Source: a virus
Direction: 5' to 3' (one strand)
Virus record (IMG/VR): IMGVR_UViG_3300032118_000020
Span: 1 to 40,716 of that record
Length of the DNA: 40,716 nt
Position numbers and translations under genes: made by a program. The number at the start of each line of letters is the position of its first letter. Within the stretch, counting starts at the first letter, position 1. Below, piece after piece: positions 3,032 through 39,244 of this stretch. The notes under the pieces were generated by a model. That model was not told where the DNA came from. It saw only the letters and a program-made list of their open reading frames with translations, and searched no databases.

Positions 3032-3577
3032 ATGAAAATGAAACTCGTACTCGTACACAAAGGTGGAAGTGGTTCAGGAGATTATGGTCATTCAGGCAGA
3101 CCAGGAGAAGTCGGTGGATCGTCTGGCGGACACGGTGGCACTCAGCATCCTTTGCGTGATGAACATGGAATGCGTATTCGTGGGAAATTGAACAATCCTG
3201 GTTCTGCAAAGATGCTAACCGATGATGAAATTGACGAGGCTGTCTATGGCACTGGTTTCAATAACAAGACCAAAGGACTGAAAGCATATGCCAGACAGGG
3301 GTTTGAACATCCTAGCATAAAAGCAATCAGAGAGAAATATTCCAAGATCATTCCGAAGAAGCATCTTACAGCATTTGCTGCCTACATCACGAATGCTAAA
3401 GCTAATGGGGCATTAGCCACAATGGTTTGGGCACAAAATGGTTCAGAAGCATGGGATAAACTTATGTCAAATATAGAAGTAGGACGCACTGTATATCGTC
3501 ATATGAGACCTGCGACATTAGATAATTGGTCTGATGCCATTGGCGATATAGACCATTTCAATAGAAGGTCTATATGA
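3032..3577 (+). CDS. tag-family protein 1 (N-terminal KGGxGSGDxGHxGRPGxxGGS tag)
   Basis: This is the first of five neighbouring proteins sharing an N-terminal tag of about 33 residues. The consensus is MKLxLVxKGG, then GSGDFGHxGRPGKVGGS. Here the tag is MKMKLVLVHKGG then GSGDYGHSGRPGEVGGSSGG at residues 1-33. The C-terminal 130 residues are mainly helical (about 60-181), have no Cys and are unlike the C-termini of the other members. I recognise no enzymatic motif. Constant N-terminus plus variable body between the minor head gene and the prohead protease gene suggests an internal head protein carried by a shared capsid-targeting or processing signal. That is inference. The start has AGGAGG 7 nt upstream. 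The stop overlaps the next gene by 4 nt (ATGA). Confidence 0.8.
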   Translation: MKMKLVLVHKGGSGSGDYGHSGRPGEVGGSSGGHGGTQHPLRDEHGMRIRGKLNNPGSAKMLTDDEIDEAVYGTGFNNKTKGLKAYARQGFEHPSIKAIREKYSKIIPKKHLTAFAAYITNAKANGALATMVWAQNGSEAWDKLMSNIEVGRTVYRHMRPATLDNWSDAIGDIDHFNRRSI

Positions 3578-4017
3578 AACTAATCCTCGTCACCAAAGGT
3601 GGTGCTGGATCCGGAGACTTCGGTCATGCTGGAAGACATGGTAAGCGAGGAGGTTCTGCAAAAGGACGTGGTGGGTCTAACTGGACTGATGAGTACACGA
3701 TGAGGCATCGTGGAACATCTCCGGAATCAGTTCCCAACAGTGGTCCACTAGAGATTCCTACACAGGATTCATTCTCTAAAGGTGGAAATGTTCCTGATGG
3801 TTGGCATCGTGTTGGTCATAATTCTGTTAGGACTGCCAGGTCAATGAAGAATGGTGATACGATGAAGATTCGTATCGGATATTGGAGCAAACAGGTGGCT
3901 GAATTCTTTGCTGAAAGAGTTCATCTTGGAAAAGTGTTAGGACTGCCTATCTACAATGGTGAATTAGTGAGATGGGATAGTTTAGCTAATAGGATAAAGA
4001 AATTGCTGGAGGAATGA
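3574..4017 (+). CDS. tag-family protein 2
   Basis: The tag at residues 1-33 reads MKLILVTKGG then GSGDFGHAGRHGKRGGSAKG. A disordered Ser/Pro/Asn segment follows (about 40-70), then a domain opening with VPDGWHRVGH and ending in a helix (RIKKLLEE). The opening of that domain resembles tag-family protein 3 (IPKGWTKFSH), so 2 and 3 probably share a C-terminal fold as well as the tag. No catalytic motif is evident. The ATGA overlap with gene 1 and the 4-nt overlap with gene 3 indicate a translationally coupled run. Confidence 0.8.
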   Translation: MKLILVTKGGAGSGDFGHAGRHGKRGGSAKGRGGSNWTDEYTMRHRGTSPESVPNSGPLEIPTQDSFSKGGNVPDGWHRVGHNSVRTARSMKNGDTMKIRIGYWSKQVAEFFAERVHLGKVLGLPIYNGELVRWDSLANRIKKLLEE

Positions 4018-4493
4018 TGAGACTGCTTCTCGTAACCAAAGGTGGCAAAGGCTCTGGCGATGCTGGTCATTCAGGCAGACCTGGCAAGGTTGGTGGGTCT
4101 TTACCTGGTAAGGGAAAGCATGAGCATCATCACGAGCACAGGAAGAAGAGGTCATATCATTTCCATCACCACCATCATGACGAGAAGAAGGTAGAAGAGA
4201 AGAAGCCGAAGCAATTATCATTCTTACCGAAGCCAGAGAAGCCGAAGAAGGTAGAAGAGCCTGGTTTCACGGACGATGAGATTCCCAAAGGATGGACAAA
4301 GTTCTCACATGAGGCTATCAGTCGTGGTGATGCAGTAAAGAAAGTATTCATTGTGAGGAGTCCTGGTGGCAAGTTCTCTATGCAGAGAAGGTATCTTGGA
4401 TCAGCATTGTTAGAAGAGTATCATAGAGAAGCTCCGTCGTTCAGTTCGTTGGATAAAGCAATCAGAGAAGCAGAAAAATGGTTAGGAGAATGA
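4014..4493 (+). CDS. tag-family protein 3 with His-rich linker
   Basis: The tag at residues 1-34 reads MMRLLLVTKGG then GSGDAGHSGRPGKVGGSLPG. A striking linker rich in His, Lys and Glu follows (about 35-85) and includes the run HFHHHHHDEKK. It could bind metal or simply be a charged spacer. The C-terminal domain (about 90-159) starts IPKGWTKFSHEAISRGDAV and ends in a helix with Trp (REAEKWLGE). It resembles the end of tag-family protein 2. The His run is encoded by mixed CAT/CAC codons inside a phage operon and is not a cloning tag. One base separates its stop from the next member's start. Confidence 0.78.
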   Translation: MMRLLLVTKGGKGSGDAGHSGRPGKVGGSLPGKGKHEHHHEHRKKRSYHFHHHHHDEKKVEEKKPKQLSFLPKPEKPKKVEEPGFTDDEIPKGWTKFSHEAISRGDAVKKVFIVRSPGGKFSMQRRYLGSALLEEYHREAPSFSSLDKAIREAEKWLGE

Positions 4494-4494
4494 T

Positions 4495-4965
4495 ATGAAA
4501 CTGATAATAGTGAAGAAAGGTGGATTCGGATCTGGCTTTCGTGGACACAGAGGAATTCCTAGTCACCAAGGTGGTTCTCTTCCTGGAAAAGGTAGTTTCA
4601 TAGATGCTTCTGAAGAAACTGGTTTACAAAAAGAGCCAAGGATTAGACTGCATCACGAGGATAGAGCAGCACTTAGAACTATGGCTACGAATGATTATCA
4701 GCATCGTGCAGGACGACGATATCCTGACTCAGGTGTTCCTGACAACATGGATGTCTATGAGAATAAACAATATAATACAATTACCATTTCTGCTAGTTTC
4801 AAAAGCACCACTGCTCAGGAAGCTGCCGAGTGGATGGTGAGTCATCTAAGTAGATTCGGTGTCAGAATGGAGGACATATATGTGAATCATATGGCAGGAG
4901 ATTATCCAAACGATTGGACTGAGGCTTGGGTGCCATTCAAGACGAAAGGAAGAAGTGGAAAGTGA
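4495..4965 (+). CDS. tag-family protein 4 (divergent tag)
   Basis: This is the most divergent tag of the set: MKLIIVKKGG then GSGFRGHRGIPSHQGGSLPG. The GRPGKV core has become GIPSHQ, but the flanking KGGxGSG and GGSLPGKG strings are kept. The body (about 45-156) contains a plausible alpha/beta domain with strand YNTITISASFKS, helix TAQEAAEWMVSHLSRFG and a Trp-rich end. It resembles a small ferredoxin-like fold, but I recognise no named family. It starts 1 nt after the stop of member 3 with GTTAGGAGAATGAT upstream. Its stop overlaps a GTG start of the glycosyltransferase downstream. Confidence 0.75.
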   Translation: MKLIIVKKGGFGSGFRGHRGIPSHQGGSLPGKGSFIDASEETGLQKEPRIRLHHEDRAALRTMATNDYQHRAGRRYPDSGVPDNMDVYENKQYNTITISASFKSTTAQEAAEWMVSHLSRFGVRMEDIYVNHMAGDYPNDWTEAWVPFKTKGRSGK

Positions 4966-5711
4966 TTGCTGCATACTGTATTCTTCACTATGGCAAGGAA
5001 TGGCTCCAGTGGTCTGTGAGATCTGTCATTGATTACGTTGACGAGTTCCACATCTTCTACACTCCTTATCCGTCACACGGCTTCTCTACAACACTGCATA
5101 ATCCAGAGACCAGAGAGCAGTTGATGTTGGAAATAATAGGATTCATTATTGGTGACAAGAGTAAGCTCTATTGGCATGACTGCGGAAGATTCCAGCACGA
5201 GGGATATCATCGGGAGTTCGCTGTTCAGACTTGTGTTGACCGTGGTGCTGATATGGTCTTAGTGGTTGATGCCGATGAGATATGGGCTCCTGATGTCTTA
5301 GAAAATGCTCTGACGATTGCTGCTAGCACTGTCTCTCATTCGTTTAGAATCGGAATGAGACACTTCTGGAGAAGTCTGAAATGGATATGTGATGACCCAG
5401 CTGCTCCGACACGGATAATAAGACCGAATATCTCAATGCCAATCGAGGCATATGTACCAGGAAAAGTATTTCATATGGGATATGCTCAGAGCCCAGCAAT
5501 CATCAATTATAAGATGTCAATTCATGGTCACAGCAACGAAATAAGAAAAGATTGGTTCCGTGAGAAATTCATGGAATGGAAACCTGGTGATAAGGATGTT
5601 CATCCTACATGCAGTGATAACTTCTGGGAGCCAAAGCCATATGTTGATGATGGCACACTGAAGAGATTGGTCGGAGATCATATCTATTGGGATAAGGAGA
5701 TAATAACATGA
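4962..5711 (+). CDS. GT-A fold glycosyltransferase (family 2-like)
   Basis: From GTG 4962 the protein opens directly with the family's first strand (VIAAYCILHYGKEWLQWSVR). It has the nucleotide-sugar/metal motif VVDADEIW and a downstream H/W-rich acceptor region. This resembles the Glyco_tranf_2-like group that glycosylates proteins or glycans using UDP- or GDP-sugars. A TTG at 4926 would add 12 residues, but they have no family counterpart. GTG 4962 gives a GTGA overlap with the upstream stop and has purine-rich AAGGAAGAAG upstream, so I prefer it. It is wedged between tag-family members 4 and 5, so its target may be a head protein. The target is unknown. Confidence 0.75.
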   Translation: MIAAYCILHYGKEWLQWSVRSVIDYVDEFHIFYTPYPSHGFSTTLHNPETREQLMLEIIGFIIGDKSKLYWHDCGRFQHEGYHREFAVQTCVDRGADMVLVVDADEIWAPDVLENALTIAASTVSHSFRIGMRHFWRSLKWICDDPAAPTRIIRPNISMPIEAYVPGKVFHMGYAQSPAIINYKMSIHGHSNEIRKDWFREKFMEWKPGDKDVHPTCSDNFWEPKPYVDDGTLKRLVGDHIYWDKEIIT

Positions 5712-6328
5712 AAATGAAACTCATTCTAGTTCACAAAGGTGGTGCTGGTTCTGGAGACTTCGGTCATTCAGGACGACCAGGAAAGGTCGGAGGTTCGTCT
5801 GGTGGGAATGAGCTCTATCCCGCATATGGTGGAAAATATCATGCGGGAGGGAAAGGTCCACATGGTCGTCGTATGACTGATGTTGGTGGCGGGAAACTTC
5901 AAGAAGAACCTGCACCAGGAGAAGGATTTGGGGAAGAAGGTGGATCTTCTTCTGCTCCTGGGAGAACGTTCACACATGGCATAGATGCCAAGAAGCCGAC
6001 ACGGAAAGTCTATGGTGGAGATTTGTATGCTGTTGTTGGTGAAGTGAGTAGACCGTCTATGGGAGTTCATGGTGGTAATTATAGACTCACGAAGAGAGGT
6101 AGAAAAGTTGTTGAGTGGGGATTAGAACATCGTGATGCTATGCATGCGAAAGCATTAGAGATGGATGGTGGCAATAGTATGTGGGGTAAATTTGTCAGTG
6201 CTGTCAGAAGTGTGTTCGGCTTCTATCATCCATTGGAATACGAAGGTCAAGAGGACTATGGCATATCTATGGCTGCTCACGAAATGGATATGTTTGATGA
6301 TTTCGCTGAAGTGTACAACAGAATGTAG
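5708..6328 (+). CDS. tag-family protein 5
   Basis: The tag at residues 1-33 reads MKMKLILVHKGG then GSGDFGHSGRPGKVGGSSGG. It is the closest match to member 1 in both protein and DNA, so the two are probably recent duplicates. A second Gly-rich disordered stretch follows (about 34-85). A helical C-terminal domain (about 95-206) contains the segment KRGRKVVEWGLEHRDAMHAKA and ends in FDDFAEVYNRM. No catalytic motif is recognised. It overlaps the glycosyltransferase upstream by 4 nt (ATGA) and has AAGGAG 7-8 nt before the start. The gene between member 4 and this one is a glycosyltransferase, so the tag cluster has been interrupted by or has co-evolved with it. Confidence 0.8.
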   Translation: MKMKLILVHKGGAGSGDFGHSGRPGKVGGSSGGNELYPAYGGKYHAGGKGPHGRRMTDVGGGKLQEEPAPGEGFGEEGGSSSAPGRTFTHGIDAKKPTRKVYGGDLYAVVGEVSRPSMGVHGGNYRLTKRGRKVVEWGLEHRDAMHAKALEMDGGNSMWGKFVSAVRSVFGFYHPLEYEGQEDYGISMAAHEMDMFDDFAEVYNRM

Positions 6329-26891: not shown

Positions 26892-26918
26892 GATTGTGTG
26901 AGAGCTAGGAGGCTGAAA

Positions 26919-28148
26919 ATGAAGATCAGAGGTAAGTCTGCAGAAGTCAAGGAGCAATTCATCCTGCGTGTGCGCAGGAACTCAGAACTTGATGGTGTTC
27001 TGGGACTGGTTGCGGATGGTAATTATCATAACGAAAATGAGATACGTGCTGCTGGCGGAAAGGATCGTTCTGGCTGGCTGTTGCGTATGCTCGGTCGGCA
27101 GTTCGATAATGTTACCATCAAGACTAAGAATCGCGACCGCAGCATTGGTCGCTCTAGGGAAACTCGCATCAATTATGTGGACGTGTTTCCCGAGGTTCCG
27201 GTATCTATCGGCATGGACGTTCATGTTGATGGCGAGGATATCGGTGCTGCTATCGTCGGTGCTGCCGAGCCAGAAAGTCGTGTCTCACCTGCTCGTGTGC
27301 AGTGGCCGCAGATGCCGCCTGTCATCGAATCAATGGGCGATATCTTCAAGGAGCCAAAGTGGTTCACTGATATGGAAAGAATGACCGAGGCTGGTCGTCA
27401 TATCAGTCTGGCTGGTCCTCCTGGTGTTGGAAAAGATACCGCTGTTCAGGAGCTCGCTGCTCAGGAAGGTAAGATCTTGGTGACCATTGGTGGCGATGCT
27501 GGTTTCCGTCGTCGCGACCTGGTCGGCTCTCAACAGATTTCCAACGGTCGCAGCTACTTCGAAGTCGCGGAGTATGCTGCTGCTGTCGTGAACGGGTGGT
27601 GGGCTCTGATATCGGAAGTGAATGCTGCTGATGCTGATGCGCTGCTGTTCATCAATACGCAGCTTGCTCCGCCCTACATTATCAACATCGCGGGCAAGTC
27701 GTATGCTGTTCATCCGAACTTCAGATTGTTTGTCACGTACAATGCTGGTCTGGTCGGGACGAAGCCACTTCCTCAATCTTTCAAAGATAGATTCTTTTCC
27801 ATTAAGATCCCGTTCTGGTCTAAGGACGGTCTTCGTGGTTTGCTTCAAGCTCACGGGATGCCAGAAGGTGAAGAGTACGATCGTCTCGTGAACTTCGCAA
27901 TGCTAATGTGGGATGCTCACGAGCGTGGGACTATCAGATATCAAATCACTTCACGTCGTCTCATGGATGCCGTTGAGTTGATGAAGAACGGTACTCACGA
28001 TGCTGAGGACGCTCTGAAACTCGCTGTGCTGGCTTCAATAGACAGTCCTTTGGAAGTCGGCACTGCGAAGTCACTAATCGAACAATCAAAGTACCATGTC
28101 ATCGGTGTTGACATGGCTCAAAATGTATCTCAGAATGTAAATGGATAG
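26919..28148 (+). CDS. MoxR/CobS-like AAA+ ATPase
   Basis: ATG 26919 follows the shared leader CTAGGAGGCTGAAA; the longer frame from 26898 would place that leader inside the gene. In 409 residues, an N-terminal 130-residue region precedes the AAA+ core. The core has Walker A GPPGVGKD (166-173), a Walker B variant ALISEVN (229-235), sensor I Asn275 (FVTYNAG) and arginine finger Arg291 (FKDRFF). The absence of DE in Walker B except as SE is typical of the CobS/NirQ/MoxR clade. These ATPases work with VWA-domain partners as chaperones or chelatases, and such a partner is encoded next. No CobN-type large subunit is present in the window, so metal chelation is not supported. Confidence 0.8.
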   Translation: MKIRGKSAEVKEQFILRVRRNSELDGVLGLVADGNYHNENEIRAAGGKDRSGWLLRMLGRQFDNVTIKTKNRDRSIGRSRETRINYVDVFPEVPVSIGMDVHVDGEDIGAAIVGAAEPESRVSPARVQWPQMPPVIESMGDIFKEPKWFTDMERMTEAGRHISLAGPPGVGKDTAVQELAAQEGKILVTIGGDAGFRRRDLVGSQQISNGRSYFEVAEYAAAVVNGWWALISEVNAADADALLFINTQLAPPYIINIAGKSYAVHPNFRLFVTYNAGLVGTKPLPQSFKDRFFSIKIPFWSKDGLRGLLQAHGMPEGEEYDRLVNFAMLMWDAHERGTIRYQITSRRLMDAVELMKNGTHDAEDALKLAVLASIDSPLEVGTAKSLIEQSKYHVIGVDMAQNVSQNVNG

Positions 28149-28158
28149 GAGGCTGAAT

Positions 28159-29448
28159 ATGTGTCCGCAAGGTGATGTCAAAAGTCATGTAAGTCATGGC
28201 AGTGGTCGTGGTCATTATGGTGGCAGTGTACGTTCCTATGACGATCACGGTCGTGGTGATTCCAAGAATATCTGGGATTGGTTCCACGATACTTGGGAAT
28301 CAGAAGGTTGTGTGCGCAGTTGGCTCATGACTAGGACTGATAGGGAGTACTATACTCTCTTCACGAAGAGCATGGAACGGTTCGGTGTAATGGATATCGC
28401 ATACGGTTCTGCTCCTGGATATTTCCCTGGTCGCGATACTCGTGCGCATAAGATGGTGGTCAATCATCAGGACGAGGATGCGTGGACTGAGTTCTACAAG
28501 CTGCTCATCGAGGGCTACAATCGGTTTCATGCTGCTCAGCAACAGCAAAGGCAGATTGAAGCTGAAGAATGGCAAGGCAAGATGGAGGCTCAACGTCGCC
28601 AGCGGGAGGCGGAGGCTGCTCGTGTAGATCGTGAGGACTTTGGAAATGTCATTCCGCTGATTGAAGCAACCACTGGTACGATTCACTCAGATCTTGCCGA
28701 GACTACCTTCGTACAGAAGGATGTGGTTCGCGATTATGGCGATGCTATCGAGGATGTCGTTGATGCGTACAGTGGTCGCGGTGGGTTCATGGATATCGAG
28801 CAGAAAGCCACTGAAACCAAGTTGCAGATAACTGTGTCTCTAGATCTCAGCAACAGTATGTACTATAACAATGTCCATCAGGTTGCTGCCGAAGCGTTCA
28901 TGATGATAGGTATGTCGCTTGATCTTATCAAGAAGGAATATCCCGACGATATCTTTGTCGCGTACTTCACGTTCTCAGAGAACTGCTGGCGAGGACATGG
29001 CAAGGGAGTAGAACGTATAGAGCCAAATCAGAATAACGAAAAGTCTTTGTTCAAAGAATTCGAGTTCGTCAAACCATCTGCCATAAAGAATTGGTATGGA
29101 TACTATGGTGGAGGGTGCGGTATCTTCACTGGCGAGGATACGTACATCGCTCCTCTCTTATCGGCAATCAGAAATTGGGAAGTAGATAGCAGTGACCCAG
29201 GAGCGGTGAAGTTGGATATCGTAATCACTGATGCGGTGTTCGAGCATCCTCGTGATATCAAGGAATCTGATGTTGTTCAGGAGATGCGCAATGGTCGTCT
29301 TCAGACAGTGTTCCTAAACTTCATGGATGAAAAGAATTGGCTGGGGTCAACATTGCCGAAACGATGTACGATGGCGAAGGTTGGAAAAGATAATCTCGGT
29401 GGGATTCTGCGCAATCTCGTCGCGGAGTTCTTGGGCGCGAATTTGTAA
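28159..29448 (+). CDS. VWA-domain protein, partner of the AAA+ ATPase (CobT/CoxE-like)
   Basis: ATG 28159 follows the shared leader; an in-frame ATG at 28141 lies upstream of it. In 429 residues, the N-terminus (1-35) is Gly/His-rich. A Gln/Glu/Arg-rich coiled segment covers about 125-158. A von Willebrand A domain fills about 222-429 with the MIDAS motif DLSNS (229-233), the later Thr in GEDTYIAPLL, and Asp in VITDAVFE. All metal-coordinating positions are therefore present. VWA plus MoxR/CobS AAA+ is a classic two-gene remodelling unit. A stop TAG of the ATPase forms part of this gene's ribosome-binding site, ensuring paired expression. The target complex is unknown. Confidence 0.78.
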   Translation: MCPQGDVKSHVSHGSGRGHYGGSVRSYDDHGRGDSKNIWDWFHDTWESEGCVRSWLMTRTDREYYTLFTKSMERFGVMDIAYGSAPGYFPGRDTRAHKMVVNHQDEDAWTEFYKLLIEGYNRFHAAQQQQRQIEAEEWQGKMEAQRRQREAEAARVDREDFGNVIPLIEATTGTIHSDLAETTFVQKDVVRDYGDAIEDVVDAYSGRGGFMDIEQKATETKLQITVSLDLSNSMYYNNVHQVAAEAFMMIGMSLDLIKKEYPDDIFVAYFTFSENCWRGHGKGVERIEPNQNNEKSLFKEFEFVKPSAIKNWYGYYGGGCGIFTGEDTYIAPLLSAIRNWEVDSSDPGAVKLDIVITDAVFEHPRDIKESDVVQEMRNGRLQTVFLNFMDEKNWLGSTLPKRCTMAKVGKDNLGGILRNLVAEFLGANL

Positions 29449-32589: not shown

Positions 32590-33582
32590 ATGATAGCCCT
32601 GTTCTACAATGCCTTCAGGAATCCAAATGGCACGATTACCATTACAAACCACATAGCCATGATGTTTAGAGCAATGGGGGAAGAAGTCCGCATCTACAGG
32701 ATGGTCGGGAAACCAGGTAAATCTAAACCACTTACGACAGTTGGTGGTCCACTTGCCAGAGAGATAACATTAGATACAGCAATAGAGATAGTGAATCATA
32801 CACCATCGTTGATGGTTCATTACATGCACGATGGTAGCGACAAGCAGGAATATGCTGTAGAGCTGGTACGCAGAACAGGATTACCATTTATCATTCATGA
32901 CCACCGAGGATTGAAGCCAGAGATGCTAGATGCTGCTAAACATTACAATGCTAGGATTGTATTCATCCGTGATCCTCTCCGCAAGAGATTCAACGAAGAA
33001 AGCAATATCCATTATGATACTATCTTTCTAAAGCATCCTTACATCAGGCACGAAGATGTAGATTGTAAGATAAAGTACAATGCTGTATCATTGGGAAGAG
33101 TTGCTAGGGAAAAGAAGATCGAGATGGTGTGCGAGGCTAACAGATTGCTGCACGGTGATAAGATAATGATTGCTGGTGCAGAGACTGATAGAATCTATTC
33201 ACACTTCACATTAGATAAGAACTATCCAGAATGGAAAAATTATCGTATCAAAGAACCTGGCACAGACCAATATGCTCTTTGCTGCTCCACCAAGTTTAGT
33301 ATAGATATGACCGAGTTCAAAGGAGATGGTGGAGGTACACAGTACACTTTCCTAGAAGCGATGGATGCCGGTAGTGAGCTAGTGCTGAACAGCAGTTGGA
33401 TGAAATTTAGAAATTCCGAGATGCAGGATGGATATAATTGTGTGTCTGTAGGAAGTCCTATAGAATTGGCTGGTGTTGTCATGAAACAACCAAGACCACT
33501 AGAAGGCTACGAGACTACGTTGCGTGCACATTCTGTGGAGGCAGTAGGAGAGGCATGGCTAAATGTTTGTTATGAAAGATAA
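32590..33582 (+). CDS. GT-B glycosyltransferase (family 4-like)
   Basis: In 330 residues, the N-terminal lobe (1-150) opens with IALFYNAFRNPNGTITITNH and contains SLMVHYMHD and PFIIHDHRGL. The C-terminal lobe opens with AVSLGRVAREKKIEMVCEAN, the standard entrance of GT4 enzymes (xxGRl...KG). It has the donor-site-like DGGGTQYTFLEAMDAGSELVL, given here as DGGGTQYTFLEAMDAG. The same motif recurs in the gene at 34025, so the two are paralogues (identical GDGGGTQY). GGAGGAAG lies 4-9 nt before the ATG. It flanks, with that paralogue, a phosphatase gene and a base-modification gene, so sugars may be added to modified DNA bases. This is inference. Confidence 0.75.
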   Translation: MIALFYNAFRNPNGTITITNHIAMMFRAMGEEVRIYRMVGKPGKSKPLTTVGGPLAREITLDTAIEIVNHTPSLMVHYMHDGSDKQEYAVELVRRTGLPFIIHDHRGLKPEMLDAAKHYNARIVFIRDPLRKRFNEESNIHYDTIFLKHPYIRHEDVDCKIKYNAVSLGRVAREKKIEMVCEANRLLHGDKIMIAGAETDRIYSHFTLDKNYPEWKNYRIKEPGTDQYALCCSTKFSIDMTEFKGDGGGTQYTFLEAMDAGSELVLNSSWMKFRNSEMQDGYNCVSVGSPIELAGVVMKQPRPLEGYETTLRAHSVEAVGEAWLNVCYER

Positions 33583-33585
33583 CCT

Positions 33586-34023
33586 ATGAGAATCTACGAG
33601 ATAATACCTAACAAGTTGTATGTCAGTAGAAAAACAAACGATGTTCCGATTGAAAAGAAATTGCCCCAGCTGGAAGAACTTGGTATCGATGTTATTGTAA
33701 ATATGTGTTGCGAGAAAGACGAGGATTTGGTTTATGAGATGTATGAATACATAAGTTTCTATCAGCCAGATGGAAAAAGTCCGAATGTGGAAGCATATGA
33801 TAGGATGGCGCAGTATCTGGTTGGCAAGATAGAAGTTGGTCATGTAGTCTTGGTTCATTGTAAGCACGGAAGGAATAGGTCTGGCTTCCTTGCTGGTGTT
33901 GTGGTCATGTATCTGAAGAATATCAGTGGCAAGAAAGCCAGGATGTTGGTTCAGGAGAAGAGACCGAAGTCAATACACAGCGTATATATGTATCGTGCGT
34001 TGGACGAACTGGAGTTGGAGTGA
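33586..34023 (+). CDS. dual-specificity / tyrosine phosphatase-like protein
   Basis: The P-loop VHCKHGRNRSG has nucleophile Cys92 and Arg98 and matches HCxxGxxRS exactly. Upstream, IIPNKLYVSRKTNDVP and LEELGIDVIVNM are typical of small DSP-fold enzymes. A general-acid Asp is plausible in QPDGKSP. At 145 residues it is a minimal single-domain phosphatase. Such enzymes remove phosphate from Tyr/Ser/Thr, RNA 5' ends, phosphoinositides or sugars. In this cassette, flanked by two transferases and followed by a hydroxymethyluracil-kinase-family protein, removal of phosphate from a modified base or sugar is attractive but unproven. Confidence 0.85.
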   Translation: MRIYEIIPNKLYVSRKTNDVPIEKKLPQLEELGIDVIVNMCCEKDEDLVYEMYEYISFYQPDGKSPNVEAYDRMAQYLVGKIEVGHVVLVHCKHGRNRSGFLAGVVVMYLKNISGKKARMLVQEKRPKSIHSVYMYRALDELELE

Positions 34024-34024
34024 T

Positions 34025-35074
34025 ATGAAAATCTCATTGTTCTATATGTCAAAGGTAGGATTCGGTGGATTCGTGAAATACACATCTGAATTGTACAAAG
34101 CATTTCAGAGGATGGGTCATGATGTCAACCTGTACAAGATACGTTCCAGATGGGAGAATAAACTGAGGGACTTCAACGAGGGAGTTCAGAGTAGGAACAT
34201 TTCCATCATCGATGCTGAAGAGATAATTGCTAAGTCCGATGCTGCCATAGTTACAGCGACATGGTGGAAAGGTTGGTATGAAAATGTGCAGGCATTGATT
34301 GAGATGGGAGCCGAAGTGGTAATCCATGACCACACCGAATACAACAAAGACTTTCTAAATTTTCTAGACAATTATCAGGTCAGACCAATTGTCATTCGCA
34401 AGGCAAGTGAGCGGCATTTGCAAGAAGAGGGATTAGACCCAGTGTTCATTCCGCATCCTTACATTCCTTTCATGAGCCATGAGTTCAGGATTTCCAACAA
34501 GCCAAGACCATTGCATGCTATCAGTGTTTGTCGCTTGGACTTTGATAAGCGTACGCATATGCTCATAGAAGCAAACGAGTTGTTGCCATTCAATAAGCGC
34601 ATACATCTTTGGGGAGCACATGTCAGGATGTATATGTACAACAAGATTGTGCATAAGTATAAAGGTTGGGACGATGATAAGCATTACACTGGTCCGTGCT
34701 ATCTTCGTGCTCAGCAGAATTTCAGTAAGGAATTAGGATATGCTGTAGAATTGAATGGTCGTGCGGAGTTCTCAGTTGATATGTCAGCGATTGTTGGCGA
34801 TGGTGGAGGTACACAGTACAGCTTTCTTCAGGCTATGGATGCTGGGGCTGTTGTGGTCGTGAATTCAGATTGGGTTTATGGATACACAGACGAGATGCAG
34901 CATGCGGAAAATTGTATTGCTGTCGAGGATGTCGACGATTTGGTGTCTTTGTTAAAACATAATACAAGGCAAGATGTTATTGGTCATGTTTATGGTGCTG
35001 AGGAGATATTGGAAAATCATAGACCGAAGAAGATTGTTCCTCAGTACATAAAGTTCTTGAGAGGTGAGATATGA
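34025..35074 (+). CDS. GT-B glycosyltransferase (family 4-like), paralogue of the 32590 gene
   Basis: ATG 34025 (GGAGTTGGAGTGAT upstream) is used; the frame extends back through the phosphatase gene without support. The 349-residue protein has KISLFYMSKVGFGGFVKYTS at the N-terminal Gly loop, EVVIHDHTEY, AISVCRLDFDKRTHMLIEAN at the start of the second lobe, and GDGGGTQYSFLQAMDAGAVVVV in the donor region, quoted as GDGGGTQYSFLQAMDAG. The layout parallels the transferase at 32590, so a duplication enclosing the phosphatase gene is likely. It overlaps the following base-modification gene by 4 nt (ATGA). Confidence 0.75.
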   Translation: MKISLFYMSKVGFGGFVKYTSELYKAFQRMGHDVNLYKIRSRWENKLRDFNEGVQSRNISIIDAEEIIAKSDAAIVTATWWKGWYENVQALIEMGAEVVIHDHTEYNKDFLNFLDNYQVRPIVIRKASERHLQEEGLDPVFIPHPYIPFMSHEFRISNKPRPLHAISVCRLDFDKRTHMLIEANELLPFNKRIHLWGAHVRMYMYNKIVHKYKGWDDDKHYTGPCYLRAQQNFSKELGYAVELNGRAEFSVDMSAIVGDGGGTQYSFLQAMDAGAVVVVNSDWVYGYTDEMQHAENCIAVEDVDDLVSLLKHNTRQDVIGHVYGAEEILENHRPKKIVPQYIKFLRGEI

Positions 35075-35982
35075 AGACATTCAAGAAAGATATGTTGGGA
35101 TGGTATTGGCATTTCATCAATGAACGACACGCTATCTATGTGCGAAGGAGTAGAGGAGATTCGTGGCCGTGGACTGAAGATGAGATACTTATGACATACA
35201 AGTTTACCAATGTCTTCAGAGAGTTGGATACTGGCACAATATGGTGTCGTGAAAATATTCGTGAGCCGTATGCTATGCATCCCGAACTGTTCTTCAACAT
35301 CGCGATGTATCGTCTGTATAATTATTGGCCATCTGCTCAAGAGATAATGGATAAGATTGGTTTTGTAGAGAAGTTGAGCCAGTTGAATAAGGTTGCTGGA
35401 TTGATGTATAAAAGACAGGCACGAGGAGAACGTGTATTCACTGGCGCACATATGATAACTGGCACATTGGGTGGAAATAAAATTCATCAGGTGTTTGAAT
35501 TGTGTCTGGGAGATTTGTGGAATAATCGTAAGGAATTAGAACCACATCCAGAAGACAATCTTCAGTTAGCATTCAATCGTCTGAATAAGAATTGTCCTGG
35601 CTATGGTCCGTTCATCAGCTATGAAGTCATAACAGATTTGCGACATACCAGATATCTAGAGAAAGCCAGCGATGTTTACATCTGGGCTAATCCAGGTCCT
35701 GGCGCGAAGAGAGGTGTGTGTAGGCTACTCGGTCTGAAGGTAAGTACTGCAGAGGGTGGAAAAGCCTCCAGGGACGTCCAGGCGGAATACCCGAATGATT
35801 TAGGGTATATTACTTATATGCAGGAGCTGGTAAAAACGCAGGATGATAGGAAGGCTAGATATGTGCCGAGGATGGAAATGCGTGATGTGGAACATTCTCT
35901 GTGTGAATGGGACAAATATGAAAGAGCTAGGAACGGTGAAGGAAGACCAAGGAGTAGATATACACCACCACATCTTCGGTAG
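35071..35982 (+). CDS. 5-hmdU DNA kinase helical-domain / aGPT-PPLase-like base-modification enzyme
   Basis: In 303 residues the hallmark is WYWHFINERHAIYVRRSRGD (from 11), then WPWTEDEIL (32-40) and YKFTNVFRELD (43-53). A helix-hairpin-helix-like CPGYGPFISYEVITDLRH (175-192) and NPGPGAKRG (207-215) follow. This order defines, from memory, the family variously named 5-hmdU DNA kinase helical domain or alpha-glutamyl/putrescinyl thymine pyrophosphorylase clade. It is a DNA-glycosylase-fold group found in phages with hypermodified thymine. Members act on 5-hydroxymethyluracil or its pyrophosphate ester in phage DNA. The kinase P-loop partner is not visible here. Its ATGA overlap with the transferase upstream argues for a joint pathway. 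Confidence 0.78.
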   Translation: MKTFKKDMLGWYWHFINERHAIYVRRSRGDSWPWTEDEILMTYKFTNVFRELDTGTIWCRENIREPYAMHPELFFNIAMYRLYNYWPSAQEIMDKIGFVEKLSQLNKVAGLMYKRQARGERVFTGAHMITGTLGGNKIHQVFELCLGDLWNNRKELEPHPEDNLQLAFNRLNKNCPGYGPFISYEVITDLRHTRYLEKASDVYIWANPGPGAKRGVCRLLGLKVSTAEGGKASRDVQAEYPNDLGYITYMQELVKTQDDRKARYVPRMEMRDVEHSLCEWDKYERARNGEGRPRSRYTPPHLR

Positions 35983-35998
35983 TTTAGTTGTATAGGAG
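35980..35998 (+). promoter_or_regulatory. AAGTTTAG element 4
   Basis: TAGTTTAGTTGTATAGGAG lies at the stop of the base-modification gene and merges into the shared leader TAGGAGGCTGATATG of the next gene. It is identical to element 3 from AGTTTAG through TATAGG. Confidence 0.35.
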
Positions 35999-36004
35999 GC
36001 TGAT

Positions 36005-36319
36005 ATGAAAGGAAGAATGTACTACTATAAGGATATGTTCAAGCTGAAGGACAGAGATCGGTGTAGGATCACCGAGAAGGTAGTCGTTATTCTCAAGAAG
36101 AAATTCAGCAAGACGATGGGGTATCCTGCCGAAGAAATCCATGCTAGGAGAGAGGAAGTGGCGAAAGATGCCAGGGAATTGGTGGTCAGAGTTTCAAATG
36201 GAATACCTCCTGGTCATGTGATAATGTATCCTGTGATAATCAGATCCGCAAGAATCTATAATAAGGAGAGGGAACCATGGCACCGAAAAGAGTCGAAGTC
36301 ACCAAAGAAGCATTCCTGA
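36005..36319 (+). CDS. small basic protein, unknown
   Basis: This 104-residue Lys/Arg-rich protein carries the shared leader (35993-36007). Predicted features are an N-terminal basic helix, a central helix (EEIHARREEVAKDARELVV), a strand (HVIMYPVIIRSARI) and a basic C-terminal tail rich in Lys, Ser and Pro. It could bind nucleic acid. No family is recognised. It overlaps the Nmad1 gene by 43 nt. Confidence 0.6.
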   Translation: MKGRMYYYKDMFKLKDRDRCRITEKVVVILKKKFSKTMGYPAEEIHARREEVAKDARELVVRVSNGIPPGHVIMYPVIIRSARIYNKEREPWHRKESKSPKKHS

Positions 36320-36693
36320 GAACGTTGATAAACGCTTGTATCGCCTCAGACGATACATTATCTCACTTGATTGTAGAGATTACCAACCTGGTCTATGATA
36401 AGAATCAGGATTACGGAGATGCTTGGCAGCGGTATGGTATCTTCACGCCACTGATAAGAATCAATGACAAGATCCTGCGTGTGGAAACATTATCTGACGG
36501 TCGCATTGCGCTTGTGGCATCAGAGGGTATTGCCGAAACATTGAAAGATATAATCGGCTATGCAACTCTTGCGCTGATGTATCTTGACAATGACGAAGTG
36601 AAAGCAATGCTTCCTAAGAAACAACCAGTGGCTATGCCTGGGCAAATGTTATTTCCGTTCATGATGAATGACGATGAAACCGAGCCAGAATAA
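36277..36693 (+). CDS. Nmad1 / DUF1599 nucleotide-modification-associated protein
   Basis: The 138-residue protein shows LVYDKNQDYGDAWQRYG (DYGDAW at 45-50), RINDKILRVETL (61-72) and AETLKDIIGYATLAL (86-100). These are the K-N-x-D-Y-G, R-x-x-D-K-x-x-R and D-x-x-x-YA elements of DUF1599, renamed nucleotide modification associated domain 1 because of its repeated association with phage base-modification genes. MazG-like helical bundles share such a layout, so nucleotide hydrolysis is a possible activity. AGGAGAGGGAACC precedes the ATG. It overlaps the polymerase gene by 26 nt. Confidence 0.78.
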   Translation: MAPKRVEVTKEAFLRTLINACIASDDTLSHLIVEITNLVYDKNQDYGDAWQRYGIFTPLIRINDKILRVETLSDGRIALVASEGIAETLKDIIGYATLALMYLDNDEVKAMLPKKQPVAMPGQMLFPFMMNDDETEPE

Positions 36694-39244
36694 TCCCGTA
36701 TGCAAAGAATGCGGACTTTGGAAATCCTGTAAATCTCCGTTCATGAAGCCAGGAAACTCCTCTTCGTTTATCACGAAACTGTTGGTGATAGGAGAGGCTC
36801 CTGGTGAGGATGAAGATGAGAAGGGAGTTCCATTTGTTGGCAGATCTGGCACACTGTTGCGTGCTGCAATAGAGGGTGTAGGCTTCAATAAAGATGATGT
36901 GGTGTACACGAATGTTGTTAGGTGTAGACCAAAAGATAACAAGATTTCCAAGGATGCGATAGCAAGCTGCAAGCAATTCGCAATTGACGAAATAGAGCAC
37001 TACAAGCCTGACATAACATTATTGATGGGGAATAGTCCGTTAGAAGGAGTTCTGAACCAGACAGGCATCACTAATTGGCATGGTGTTATTATAGACAGGG
37101 ACGGAAAGAAGTACATGCCTTTGTATCATCCTGCATATATTCTGAGGAATCAGTCAGCGATGGATGAATGGCTCAAGGCTATGGATTCTATCAATGAAAA
37201 GATATACGGTGAAGAGGATGGAAATGAGAGATATGATGTAGATATTCCTAAGACAATCCAGGAACTCGAGGCAATGCGTGAGGAATTGAACTTCTATGAG
37301 TTCATCGCATTTGACACTGAAGTATCAGCACTGAATCCTTATTCACGCAAATGCAAATTGCTTGCTGTATCGTTTGGGGTTCCAGGATTTGTGTATGCTA
37401 TCCCAATAGACCATAAGGATAGCTGGTTCCTTGGAAATAAATTAGCTAAAGAGATAGTTGCTGGAGTTCTTGAGGATCACTATGAGGGTGTGATAGGTCA
37501 CAATCTGAAGTTCGACCAGATGCACGCATACAAGCATCTTGATGTGAAGTTCGAAGGTCATGGCGACACGATGCTTATCAGCAATATTCTTGACAGTCGA
37601 CCAGGTGCTCATGGTTTGAAGAGATTGGCTGGCATATATTGTAATATGTTCGATTATGATGCTGAGTTACAGAGATTTGTGGCAACTCATCCTGAAGCGA
37701 ATTATAAGAAGGGTGGGAACTATGGTAACATACCTTTGGAAATCTTGTTGCCATATGCTGGTCAAGATGCTGAAGCGACAGTGAAATTGTACATGCGATT
37801 GTATCCTGAACTGACGGATATACAGAAGACACTGCATGATGAAATGGTGATGCGGTTCAGTGATATGCTGTGTGATGTACAGGCGACCGGAATGGTGTTA
37901 GATAAGAACATGACTTCTGATTATCACGATCTGTACAGCATGATGCGCGAGCGTATGTATAACGAGCTTCTTGAGAATAAGAAAGTGCGAATGTTGGAAA
38001 AGATAATGTTAGAGACAAAGAAGAATTTCAAATTCAATCCGAATTCTTCTGTTCAGTTGCGATTCTTGTATTATGATATCTGTAACATGCCTATCATCGC
38101 TCACACTAAGGGTGGCAAAGCCACGACGAGTTCGAAGATTTTGAGGAAGTTGGAAGATAGATTTCCAATATTGTTTGATATCAGGCAACATAGATTGTTG
38201 GGAGGAATGCTATCAAAGTATCTTGGTCCAGCAAATGATGGCAAATGGTTATCTGAAGATGGAAGAGTTCGTTCTACTTACAATCTCAATGGTGCCAGGA
38301 CAGGACGCATATCTAGCACCAATCCTAATCTTCAGAATGTCCCAACTCCCGAGAAGGAGCCAGGAACTTTGCTTGAATACAAACCTATCAAGAACATATT
38401 CACACATTCTTATGTGTATCATGATGGTAAAGACTATGTTCGTAAGTATTGTAATGGTGTACTGTTATCAGCAGATCAATCTGGTATGGAGTTGCGAGTG
38501 TTCGCAAGTTTAGCTAGATGTATGCCGATGATAGAAATTCATAAGTCGGGAAAGGATTTCCATTCTTGCATCGCAATCAGGTCTATGACTCATAAGCCAG
38601 TCAAAGATATAACATTTGATGAGATAAAGGCTCTGCCGAAACCAGTAAGATACAAGTATAAGTGGACTAACTGGACATTGTTATATGGTGGCAGTGCTGG
38701 AACACTGGTGTCGCTGTATGATATGACTGAGCAAGATGCCAAAGATATGGTGGATGATTATTATCGTATGTTTCCAGAAGTCCTAGAGTTGAGAAAGGAA
38801 TCTATAGACTTCACAATGGCTCATGGATATATAGAGAGCCCATTTGGTAGAAGAGAATATCTGCCAGATATAAGCAGTCCTGATGCGAAGCGTAGTGCCA
38901 GAGCGGCACGAGAGGCTATAAATATGCCAACTCAATCAGCATCTTCGGACTTGACACTTTGTTCAGCTTATGTGATATATGATGCGTTGAAGAATGGAAA
39001 ATTCGATTCTAAGATAGTGAATACAGTTCACGACAGCGTTCTGTTAGATGTGCCGAAAGATGAAATAAGGGATGTGGCTGGCATATGTAAGGATGCTATG
39101 GAAAATATAAAGGTTCACAAAGAGAAGTATTTTCCTCATGTAGATTTCGATTGGCTTATCTGTCCTCTAAAGGCAGATATTGAAATCGGCACGCATTATG
39201 GTGTCGAAATAGGATTAGAAGAATGGATGGCACTATATGGGTAG
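36668..39244 (+). CDS. polA: family-4 uracil-DNA glycosylase fused to family-A DNA polymerase
   Basis: In 858 residues, positions 1-175 are a complete family-4 UDG: Fe-S cysteines C12, C15, C86 and C101 (CKEC ... CRP ... C), motif 1 GEAPGEDED (42-50), PFVGRSG, and motif 2 LYHPA (152-156). Residues about 205-400 are a 3'-5' exonuclease with FDTEVSAL (Exo I), GHNLKFDQMHAY (Exo II) and YAGQDAEA (Exo III). Residues about 410-858 are the polymerase with motif A SADQSGMELRV, the R-x-K-x-K...LLYGG motif B region and motif C NTVHDSVLLDV. Motif A has DQSGMELR where Pol I has DYSxIELR, and HDS replaces HDE. It is the replicative polymerase. UDG fusion suggests uracil or a related base is read and excised during synthesis. 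ATG 36674 is an alternative start. Confidence 0.9.
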   Translation: MTMKPSQNNPVCKECGLWKSCKSPFMKPGNSSSFITKLLVIGEAPGEDEDEKGVPFVGRSGTLLRAAIEGVGFNKDDVVYTNVVRCRPKDNKISKDAIASCKQFAIDEIEHYKPDITLLMGNSPLEGVLNQTGITNWHGVIIDRDGKKYMPLYHPAYILRNQSAMDEWLKAMDSINEKIYGEEDGNERYDVDIPKTIQELEAMREELNFYEFIAFDTEVSALNPYSRKCKLLAVSFGVPGFVYAIPIDHKDSWFLGNKLAKEIVAGVLEDHYEGVIGHNLKFDQMHAYKHLDVKFEGHGDTMLISNILDSRPGAHGLKRLAGIYCNMFDYDAELQRFVATHPEANYKKGGNYGNIPLEILLPYAGQDAEATVKLYMRLYPELTDIQKTLHDEMVMRFSDMLCDVQATGMVLDKNMTSDYHDLYSMMRERMYNELLENKKVRMLEKIMLETKKNFKFNPNSSVQLRFLYYDICNMPIIAHTKGGKATTSSKILRKLEDRFPILFDIRQHRLLGGMLSKYLGPANDGKWLSEDGRVRSTYNLNGARTGRISSTNPNLQNVPTPEKEPGTLLEYKPIKNIFTHSYVYHDGKDYVRKYCNGVLLSADQSGMELRVFASLARCMPMIEIHKSGKDFHSCIAIRSMTHKPVKDITFDEIKALPKPVRYKYKWTNWTLLYGGSAGTLVSLYDMTEQDAKDMVDDYYRMFPEVLELRKESIDFTMAHGYIESPFGRREYLPDISSPDAKRSARAAREAINMPTQSASSDLTLCSAYVIYDALKNGKFDSKIVNTVHDSVLLDVPKDEIRDVAGICKDAMENIKVHKEKYFPHVDFDWLICPLKADIEIGTHYGVEIGLEEWMALYG

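Follow-up and report, generated by a model that had tools for sequence, protein, structure and literature searches.

The locus at positions 32,590 to 39,244 of the viral DNA analysed here (the window, 40.7 kb) raises the question of what a phage does to its DNA with two glycosyltransferases (GTs) that flank a phosphatase and stand next to a protein of the HMUDK_hel family. The best reading is a direct glycosylation of a 5-hydroxymethylpyrimidine within DNA, with HMUDK_hel as retained partner; we assign it a probability of about 0.6. Its observed basis consists of gene content, the replacement of genes at one slot, mutual exclusion, co-occurrence with thymidylate-synthase-like (TS-like) genes and protein folds. 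The window is a fragment, roughly half a genome; collinear relatives reach 70–75 kb.

Gene content of the locus

Seven ORFs were confirmed, all on the + strand and all intact. GT1 (32590..33582), a GT4-like GT-B glycosyltransferase according to profile and alignment, is followed by a small dual-specificity-type phosphatase (DSP, 33586..34023; motif HCKHGRNRS, Pfam DSPc 1.5e-12) and by GT2 (34025..35074), again a GT4-like GT-B enzyme as judged by profile and fold comparison, which starts at ATG 34025 and not with a longer GTG ORF. HMUDK_hel (PF18723; 35071..35982), a homologue of ORF055 of phage M6, comes next. A small basic protein conserved across the nearest relatives (36005..36319), Nmad1/DUF1599, the nucleotide modification associated domain 1 (36277..36693; Pfam 2.7e-10), and a DNA polymerase A with N-terminal UDG and 3'-5' exonuclease (UDG-exo-PolA, 36668..39244) complete the locus. 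Pfam found all three domains in the latter product, whose full-length matches among isolates are headed by SPO1-like and related phages.

By Pfam, profile and fold, the gene identities of the original prediction mostly hold (GT-B, DSP, second GT-B, HMUDK_hel, Nmad1, UDG-PolA), including that of the 35071 product, which matches HMUDK_hel with E=8e-48, far over the cut-off. The several ATGA overlaps described earlier reduce to a single true 4-base overlap at the GT2/HMUDK_hel junction (35071–35074); the remaining junctions show overlaps of 43, 26 or 8 bases, or short gaps. Since independent relatives have the genes of the downstream half in the same order, the cluster is more than chance. A role of the locus in DNA base (pyrimidine) hypermodification, as had been proposed, is strongly supported; we read it as a cassette of a tailed phage.

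The hydroxymethylase and the identity of the base

A TS-like hydroxymethylase is encoded in 29 of the 31 records with a GT cassette, the window fragment and one other being those without. It is present in the collinear relatives G001 and G034, and G001 (75.7 kb) carries both the TS-like hydroxymethylase and the dUTPase-like enzyme which had been expected outside the window. In gp42 of phage T4, an Asp at the TS position sets dCMP specificity (PMC6400193). The enzyme of G001 has Asp at this dCMP-selecting position, the EcTS-177 position, therefore the base could be cytosine. One would then expect a T4-style route, in which a dCMP hydroxymethylase provides 5-hydroxymethylcytosine (hmC), the GTs add one or two sugars and HMUDK_hel acts on hmC. 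The TS-like enzyme of phage Zepp, which combines TAGT with HMUDK_hel, likewise has Asp, and T6 makes diglucosyl-hmC with two transferases (PMC13390438). However, the G001 enzyme is overall nearest to dUMP-type enzymes, and the whole GT/HMUDK_hel set (33 TS-like enzymes) has the dUMP-type residue Asn, as has the kinase-type relative G034. We consider the hmC route unlikely, if worth keeping in mind, and the TS residue was rejected as proof of hmC because it rests on one relative, G001. 5-Hydroxymethyluracil (hmU) is the favoured candidate for the modified base.

GTs in the slots of kinase and ADDT

In the nearest collinear relatives (L117, L118 and L123), the slot that holds GT1, DSP, GT2 and HMUDK_hel in the window is occupied by ADDT, DSP, a 5-hmdU DNA kinase and HMUDK_hel; the flanking genes are mostly 50–72% identical between the window and these relatives. 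GT1 is located in the ADDT slot and GT2 in the kinase slot. A P-loop 5-hmdU DNA kinase was found neither in the 40.7 kb of the window nor in the syntenic slot. As PF18748 misses the kinase of phiW-14, this absence was retested with the kinase of a relative as query, which detects the kinases of M6, of phiW-14 and of the kinase-type relatives and gave no match in 19 GT-type records. ADDT (PF18724) is likewise missing from the window and, apart from one sub-threshold match, from all 31 GT-cassette records (0/31 above cut-off), while M6 and phiW-14 were positive. Conversely, none of four HMUDK_hel-bearing relatives without GT cassette (G033–G036) yielded a GT. A step of base phosphorylation and displacement, as in the original prediction, is not supported: both of its enzymes went undetected in the window, and GTs fill both slots.

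These comparisons suggest that the cassette arose by a swap of the base-phosphorylating and the amino-acid-attaching enzymes for two GTs at the same genomic place. As to direction, a kinase-type ancestor would have exchanged its kinase for GT2 and its ADDT for GT1, and would have kept DSP and HMUDK_hel. What speaks against direct glycosylation is that a kinase or ADDT may lie in the part of the genome beyond the fragment. An amino-acid pathway might then act first: a kinase and a transferase encoded elsewhere would put a hydroxyl amino acid on 5-phosphomethyl-dU, the GTs would add sugar to its side chain, and DSP would clear unused phosphates. HMUDK_hel and DSP are both typical of kinase-type cassettes, and the window is an incomplete genome, which fits such a scheme. 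Yet none of the GT-type records searched, some of them 60–77 kb long, gave a detectable kinase or ADDT, and GTs are absent from kinase-type records, which makes this order of events rather improbable.

The phosphatase itself has its catalytic HCX5RS motif and an upstream Asp conserved; its CX5R signature and the general-acid Asp (PD) align with the Thermococcus PTP 5z59. The possibility that it is unique to the window was rejected, as homologues are present elsewhere, solely in the kinase-type cassettes of L117, L118 and L123. A phosphatase together with two GTs had been taken as a sign of novelty, but in the nearest relatives this gene is part of the kinase-type cassettes, from which it looks to have been inherited, judged by its homologues. 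It counts against direct glycosylation that this scheme gives DSP no role.

The two glycosyltransferases

Pfam gave no assignment above cut-off for GT1 or GT2. Their assignment as GT4-like GT-B enzymes comes from a profile of 53 members and from an AlphaFold model (pLDDT 94.4). The model, compared with T4 alpha-glucosyltransferase (AGT), has the GT-B fold with the nucleotide-sugar domain; AGT, including its hmU-DNA complexes, is among the top matches of GT2 (Z 25.0, rmsd 3.5, 328 residues aligned), a score that is tied with those of many GT4 enzymes not acting on DNA. With 29% identity and a place in separate subclades of their family, GT1 and GT2 are paralogues of old standing; the recent duplication implied earlier is not borne out. 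Among 50,697 isolate phage genomes there were no relatives of GT2 at E 1e-3 and for GT1 a single weak match (E 0.04). GT2 as single protein found no match in IMG/VR; the relatives there were found with the GT1/GT2 alignment as query. A sequence search of the PDB with the profiles of the GTs and of HMUDK_hel gave no match. Another, weakly GT-like gene is located in the structural region of the window.

At residue 269, within the C-terminal motif, GT2 carries Gln, whereas 52 of 53 family members keep Glu there; the activity of GT2 is therefore uncertain. One could imagine a decaying cassette with an impaired GT2 and DSP as a relic, in a phage with 5-hmdU only or a simple monosaccharide. The Gln is indeed unique to GT2, and DSP stands without its usual kinase partner, but the ORFs are all intact, GT1 retains the conserved Glu and DSP its catalytic residues; we hold decay to be improbable.

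Distribution of the GT family

The GT family search yielded 73 loci including the window (72 others). HMUDK_hel is present in 36 of them (35 of the 72 others) and directly adjacent in 25, whereas a TET/JBP oxygenase is present in 24 and adjacent in 23; the two never occur together (0/73). In the TET-type loci ParB-like genes also lie alongside the GTs (24 loci) and TS-like genes are missing, and no TET/JBP homologue was found among the cassette genes of the window or in the HMUDK_hel-type GT loci. The association with HMUDK_hel/TS or TET spans very diverse viruses. In a scan of genome contigs, the sole matches were one actinobacterial TET/GT island and thaumarchaeal MAG homologues, and no host for the window phage emerged.

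Many GT4 enzymes glycosylate proteins or surface glycans. That the GTs act on virion proteins or host surface glycans, their position being incidental, would agree with enzymes of that kind among the fold matches and with the weakly GT-like gene in the structural region, but is very improbable given the close adjacency to HMUDK_hel/TS or TET in such diverse viruses and the presence of the GTs at one fixed slot in place of kinase and ADDT.

HMUDK_hel and a possible pathway

HMUDK_hel of the window is 37% identical to M6 ORF055, and its fold is helical and HhH-GPD/PUGT-like, resembling PUGT (Z 12.0), Qng1 and DNA glycosylases. That it is itself the kinase was rejected, as the P-loop kinase is a separate gene in M6 and in L117, L118 and L123; proteins of Kuttervirus and phiW-14 match HMUDK_hel alone and no P-loop family. 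The phosphate-displacing transferase family is carried in M6 by another gene, gp51/ADDT. HMUDK_hel is not indispensable, since G002 has the GT pair without it. We propose that it is a retained DNA- or base-handling partner.

For direct glycosylation, we infer substrate, sugar, chemistry and the role of HMUDK_hel as follows. A TS-like hydroxymethylase encoded outside the fragment would make a 5-hydroxymethylpyrimidine nucleotide, most likely hmdUMP, which the phage polymerase would bring into DNA. Once the DNA is replicated, GT1, GT2 or both would transfer a sugar straight onto the hydroxymethyl group; two transferases may mean a second sugar, or two donors. HMUDK_hel would recognize the modified base or offer it to the transferase, and it may do likewise with the 5-hmdU kinase of M6-type phages. 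The earlier idea of a sugar on a modified base is supported, as a prediction. More tentatively, and at somewhat less than even odds, HMUDK_hel may be, instead of a kinase domain, a portable reader of 5-hydroxymethylpyrimidines in DNA, working with kinase and ADDT in one lineage and with GT-B or TAGT enzymes in others, and the window phage a natural pathway swap towards mono- or diglycosylated hmU, which would give bacterial viruses an equivalent of base J that needs no TET/JBP.

If true, uncultured viruses hold a widespread DNA glycosyltransferase family tied to hmU, and hmU-linked sugar modification is, to our knowledge, a class hardly described in phages. One genomic slot would be recombined between amino-acid and sugar chemistry, the role of HMUDK_hel would become testable, hmU in DNA could be labelled with new enzymes, and more ways for phages to hide DNA from restriction and CRISPR would be known.

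Relation to known systems

Pseudomonas phage M6 encodes ADDT (gp51), a PLP enzyme (gp52), a radical SAM protein (gp53), 5-hmdU kinase (gp54), HMUDK_hel (gp55) and a TS-like enzyme (gp58). As in M6, the HMUDK_hel homologue of the window shares its gene block with a PolA gene, and relatives of the window have a TS-like gene; unlike M6, the cassette has two GT-B genes and neither kinase nor ADDT. The match of GT2 to T4 AGT (Z 25) recalls the glucosylation of hmC in T4/T6 by AGT, BGT and TAGT, where one syntenic slot can hold different transferases and two sugars may be added (PMC13390438). The GT profile gave no sequence match to T4 BGT, HMUDK_hel sets the window apart from T4/T6, and most partner hydroxymethylases are dUMP-type. 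Phage TET/JBP-glycosyltransferase cassettes (24 loci) share the GT family, there beside TET/JBP and ParB-like genes; in the window type, HMUDK_hel replaces TET/ParB, and we propose that a TS-like enzyme supplies the hydroxymethyl group on the nucleotide, in place of oxidation in DNA.

Sugars on hypermodified thymine already have precedents, the glucosylated, phosphoglucuronated dihydroxypentyluracil of Bacillus phage SP-15 and base J of kinetoplastids (PMC5977210, PMC10057400), which the claim that no such pathway had been described overlooks. Base chemistry and genes differ from those of the window, SP-15 having a teichuronic-acid-like set. Brevibacterium phage LuckyBarnes (gp38–gp41) and Microbacterium phage Zepp also bring together a TS-like gene, two GTs and HMUDK_hel. 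Their GTs, members of the TAGT family (PF20691), have no sequence relationship with those of the window, and the cultured LuckyBarnes, with the order TS-GT-GT-HMUDK_hel, is an independent parallel to the window type.

The cassette and its glycosyltransferase family

All seven genes of the original prediction were recovered in the window, which is one complete IMG/VR virus record (40,716 bases) and a genome fragment: GT1 (32590-33582), a DSP phosphatase (33586-34023), GT2 (34025-35074, the start being 34025), HMUDK_hel (35071-35982), a small basic protein (36005-36319), Nmad1 (36277-36693) and a UDG-exonuclease-PolA fusion (36668-39244). Pfam bears out the phosphatase, HMUDK_hel, Nmad1 and the fusion protein; GT1 and GT2 gave no Pfam match above cut-off. 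These two are 29% identical, form one family and have the motif GDGGGTQY[ST]FL[EQ]AMDAG in common. Instead of several ATGA overlaps, the cassette contains a single one, at the GT2/HMUDK_hel junction. The cassette is real and its theme, base modification, was correctly recognized.

A search with the GT1+GT2 alignment yielded 79 IMG/VR loci with GT relatives. Among isolate phages no GT2 relative was found at E 1e-3, and GT1 had just one, weak match. Clustering and annotation of the neighbouring ORFs gave thymidylate-synthase-like (TS-like), radical SAM/SPASM, Tet_JBP, YfbR-like HD and ParB_N proteins. In the 73 loci with a called GT frame (including the window; several are near-copies, hence counts are partly non-independent), HMUDK_hel is present in 36, directly adjoining a GT in 25, and TET/JBP in 24, adjoining in 23; none of the 73 has both. 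For comparison, a homologue of the window HMUDK_hel is detectable in 224 of 50,697 isolate genomes. Every TS-like gene of these loci is either accompanied by HMUDK_hel or lies in a truncated locus, and whole-record search found such a gene in 29 of 31 GT-cassette records, the exceptions being the window and G002, a relative. In the GT tree (66 distinct rows) about two changes separate the HMUDK_hel and TET/JBP contexts. The GT family is thus tied to base modification. Burke 2021 reportedly covers phage TET-GT systems acting on cytosine, and Lee 2018 and 2021 are said to treat amino-acid pathways; we know of no description of HMUDK_hel with GTs in these works.

Several loci deserve mention. L030 (9992-16276) holds a hybrid cassette in which GT and HMUDK_hel are combined with a TS-like gene, two PLP-enzyme genes and an extended M6-type radical SAM protein (857 aa). 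A cytidylyltransferase fused to a mannose-6-phosphate-isomerase-like cupin (L026:14411-15235; cluster c25, 7 loci) is encoded close to GT cassettes and may serve nucleotide-sugar supply. The chromosome of the actinobacterium Actinomadura rayongensis (contig L134, 2036-7930) carries a GT/TET/ParB/radical-SAM island, probably a prophage remnant. GT homologues also occur in Nitrososphaerales/Nitrososphaeraceae archaeal MAG contigs (L135-L141), with neighbours lacking HMUDK_hel, TS and TET.

Kinase/ADDT and GT genes replace each other

Searching with HMUDK_hel revealed the nearer relatives L117, L118 and L123 (72%, 65% and 52% HMUDK_hel identity to the window), with the same flanking genes and a largely similar downstream order. 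Their interval from the 31780-type gene to HMUDK_hel is occupied by an ADDT (PF18724, 34-55 bits, cut-off 26), a DSP homologous to that of the window and a 5-hmdU-kinase-type P-loop kinase. This slot holds GT1, DSP and GT2 in the window, two GTs plus a radical SAM gene in the 75.7-kb relative G001, and a radical SAM gene plus two GTs in G002. No 5-hmdU kinase was found in 19 GT-type records, with a query that does detect M6, phiW-14 and the kinase-type relatives; ADDT is above cut-off in none of 31 GT-cassette records, and no GT was detected in any of the four GT-less relatives, G033-G036. Therefore, kinase/ADDT and GT replace each other; the direction we infer. The phosphorylate-and-displace mechanism considered originally is, with kinase and ADDT undetected in the GT-type records searched, probably wrong.

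The pathway from hmdU via kinase to transferase is summarized in PMC6449724. Sugars on modified thymine have precedents in SP-15 (PMC5977210) and base J; T4 BGT and TAGT interchange at one slot, and T6 adds a second glucose (PMC13390438).

The window DSP has intact catalytic residues. Its homologues in this set occur only in kinase-type cassettes, and it diverges fast (22-42% identity versus 50-72% for HMUDK_hel and Pol); it looks inherited. Our guess at its substrate is the phosphate of 5-phosphomethyl-dU or of a small phosphorylated donor. In L117 (6811-9998) a viral myo-inositol-1-phosphate synthase gene lies directly upstream of ADDT, DSP and kinase, suggesting an inositol-derived thymidine modification there; because of this adjacency an inositol-phosphate substrate is conceivable for the L117 DSP.

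Predicted functions of HMUDK_hel and the GTs

In M6, ADDT (gp51), kinase (gp54) and HMUDK_hel (gp55) are three separate genes. HMUDK_hel also occurs in phiW-14, a Kuttervirus and the GT-B phages of the window's set. LuckyBarnes and Zepp resemble the latter in having HMUDK_hel and a TS-like gene, but their GTs belong to the TAGT family. The HMUDK_hel model (pLDDT 92.8) resembles PUGT, the 5-phosphomethyl-dU glycinyltransferase (Z 12.0, rmsd 4.0, 223 aligned), Qng1 and HhH DNA glycosylases; for a helical protein, a PUGT likeness at this Z is only suggestive. All top fold matches handle nucleobases and most bind DNA. The invariant polar residues R81, K137, D189, R214, E279 and K282 point to a putative active or binding site. 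HMUDK_hel would serve base recognition or presentation, a role common to kinase and GT systems, and may have a catalytic role of its own.

GT2 is modelled as a GT4-like GT-B enzyme. Its best fold matches include T4 alpha-glucosyltransferase, known from crystals with hmU DNA, which gives the longest alignment but is tied in score with PimA, HepE, BshA and others. Residue 269 is Gln in the window GT2 alone and a near-invariant Glu elsewhere in the family; since GT1 has Glu, the principal transferase may be GT1, or else GT2 may be tuned or impaired.

The modified base and the unseen part of the genome

G001, which contains locus L003, is collinear with the window across structural, replication and modification genes. 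Its region missing from the window carries a dCTP-deaminase/dUTPase-like gene, a dCMP deaminase and a TS-like gene; hence, the hydroxymethylase and dUTPase listed originally as not in the window are, judged from this relative, most likely present in the unseen part. The TS-like protein of G001 has Asp at the E. coli TS 177 equivalent; in T4 gp42 this residue confers dCMP specificity (PMC6400193), which makes hmC a serious rival for the window base. Against hmC, Asn stands at this position in each of the 33 TS-like proteins from the GT/HMUDK_hel set and in that of the kinase-type G034, indicating dUMP as substrate. For the window hmU is favoured.

Just upstream of the cassette (26898-29448) a 416-aa protein matching a CobS/porphyrin-biosynthesis-type ATPase phrog is followed by a conserved partner gene; the pair is also found in G001, G002 and L117. 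At 3032-6328 a Gly-rich motif of 25-30 residues (GGSGSGHFDHAGRPGEQGGSLPG-like) is repeated in several structural-region proteins, likewise in G001 and G002.
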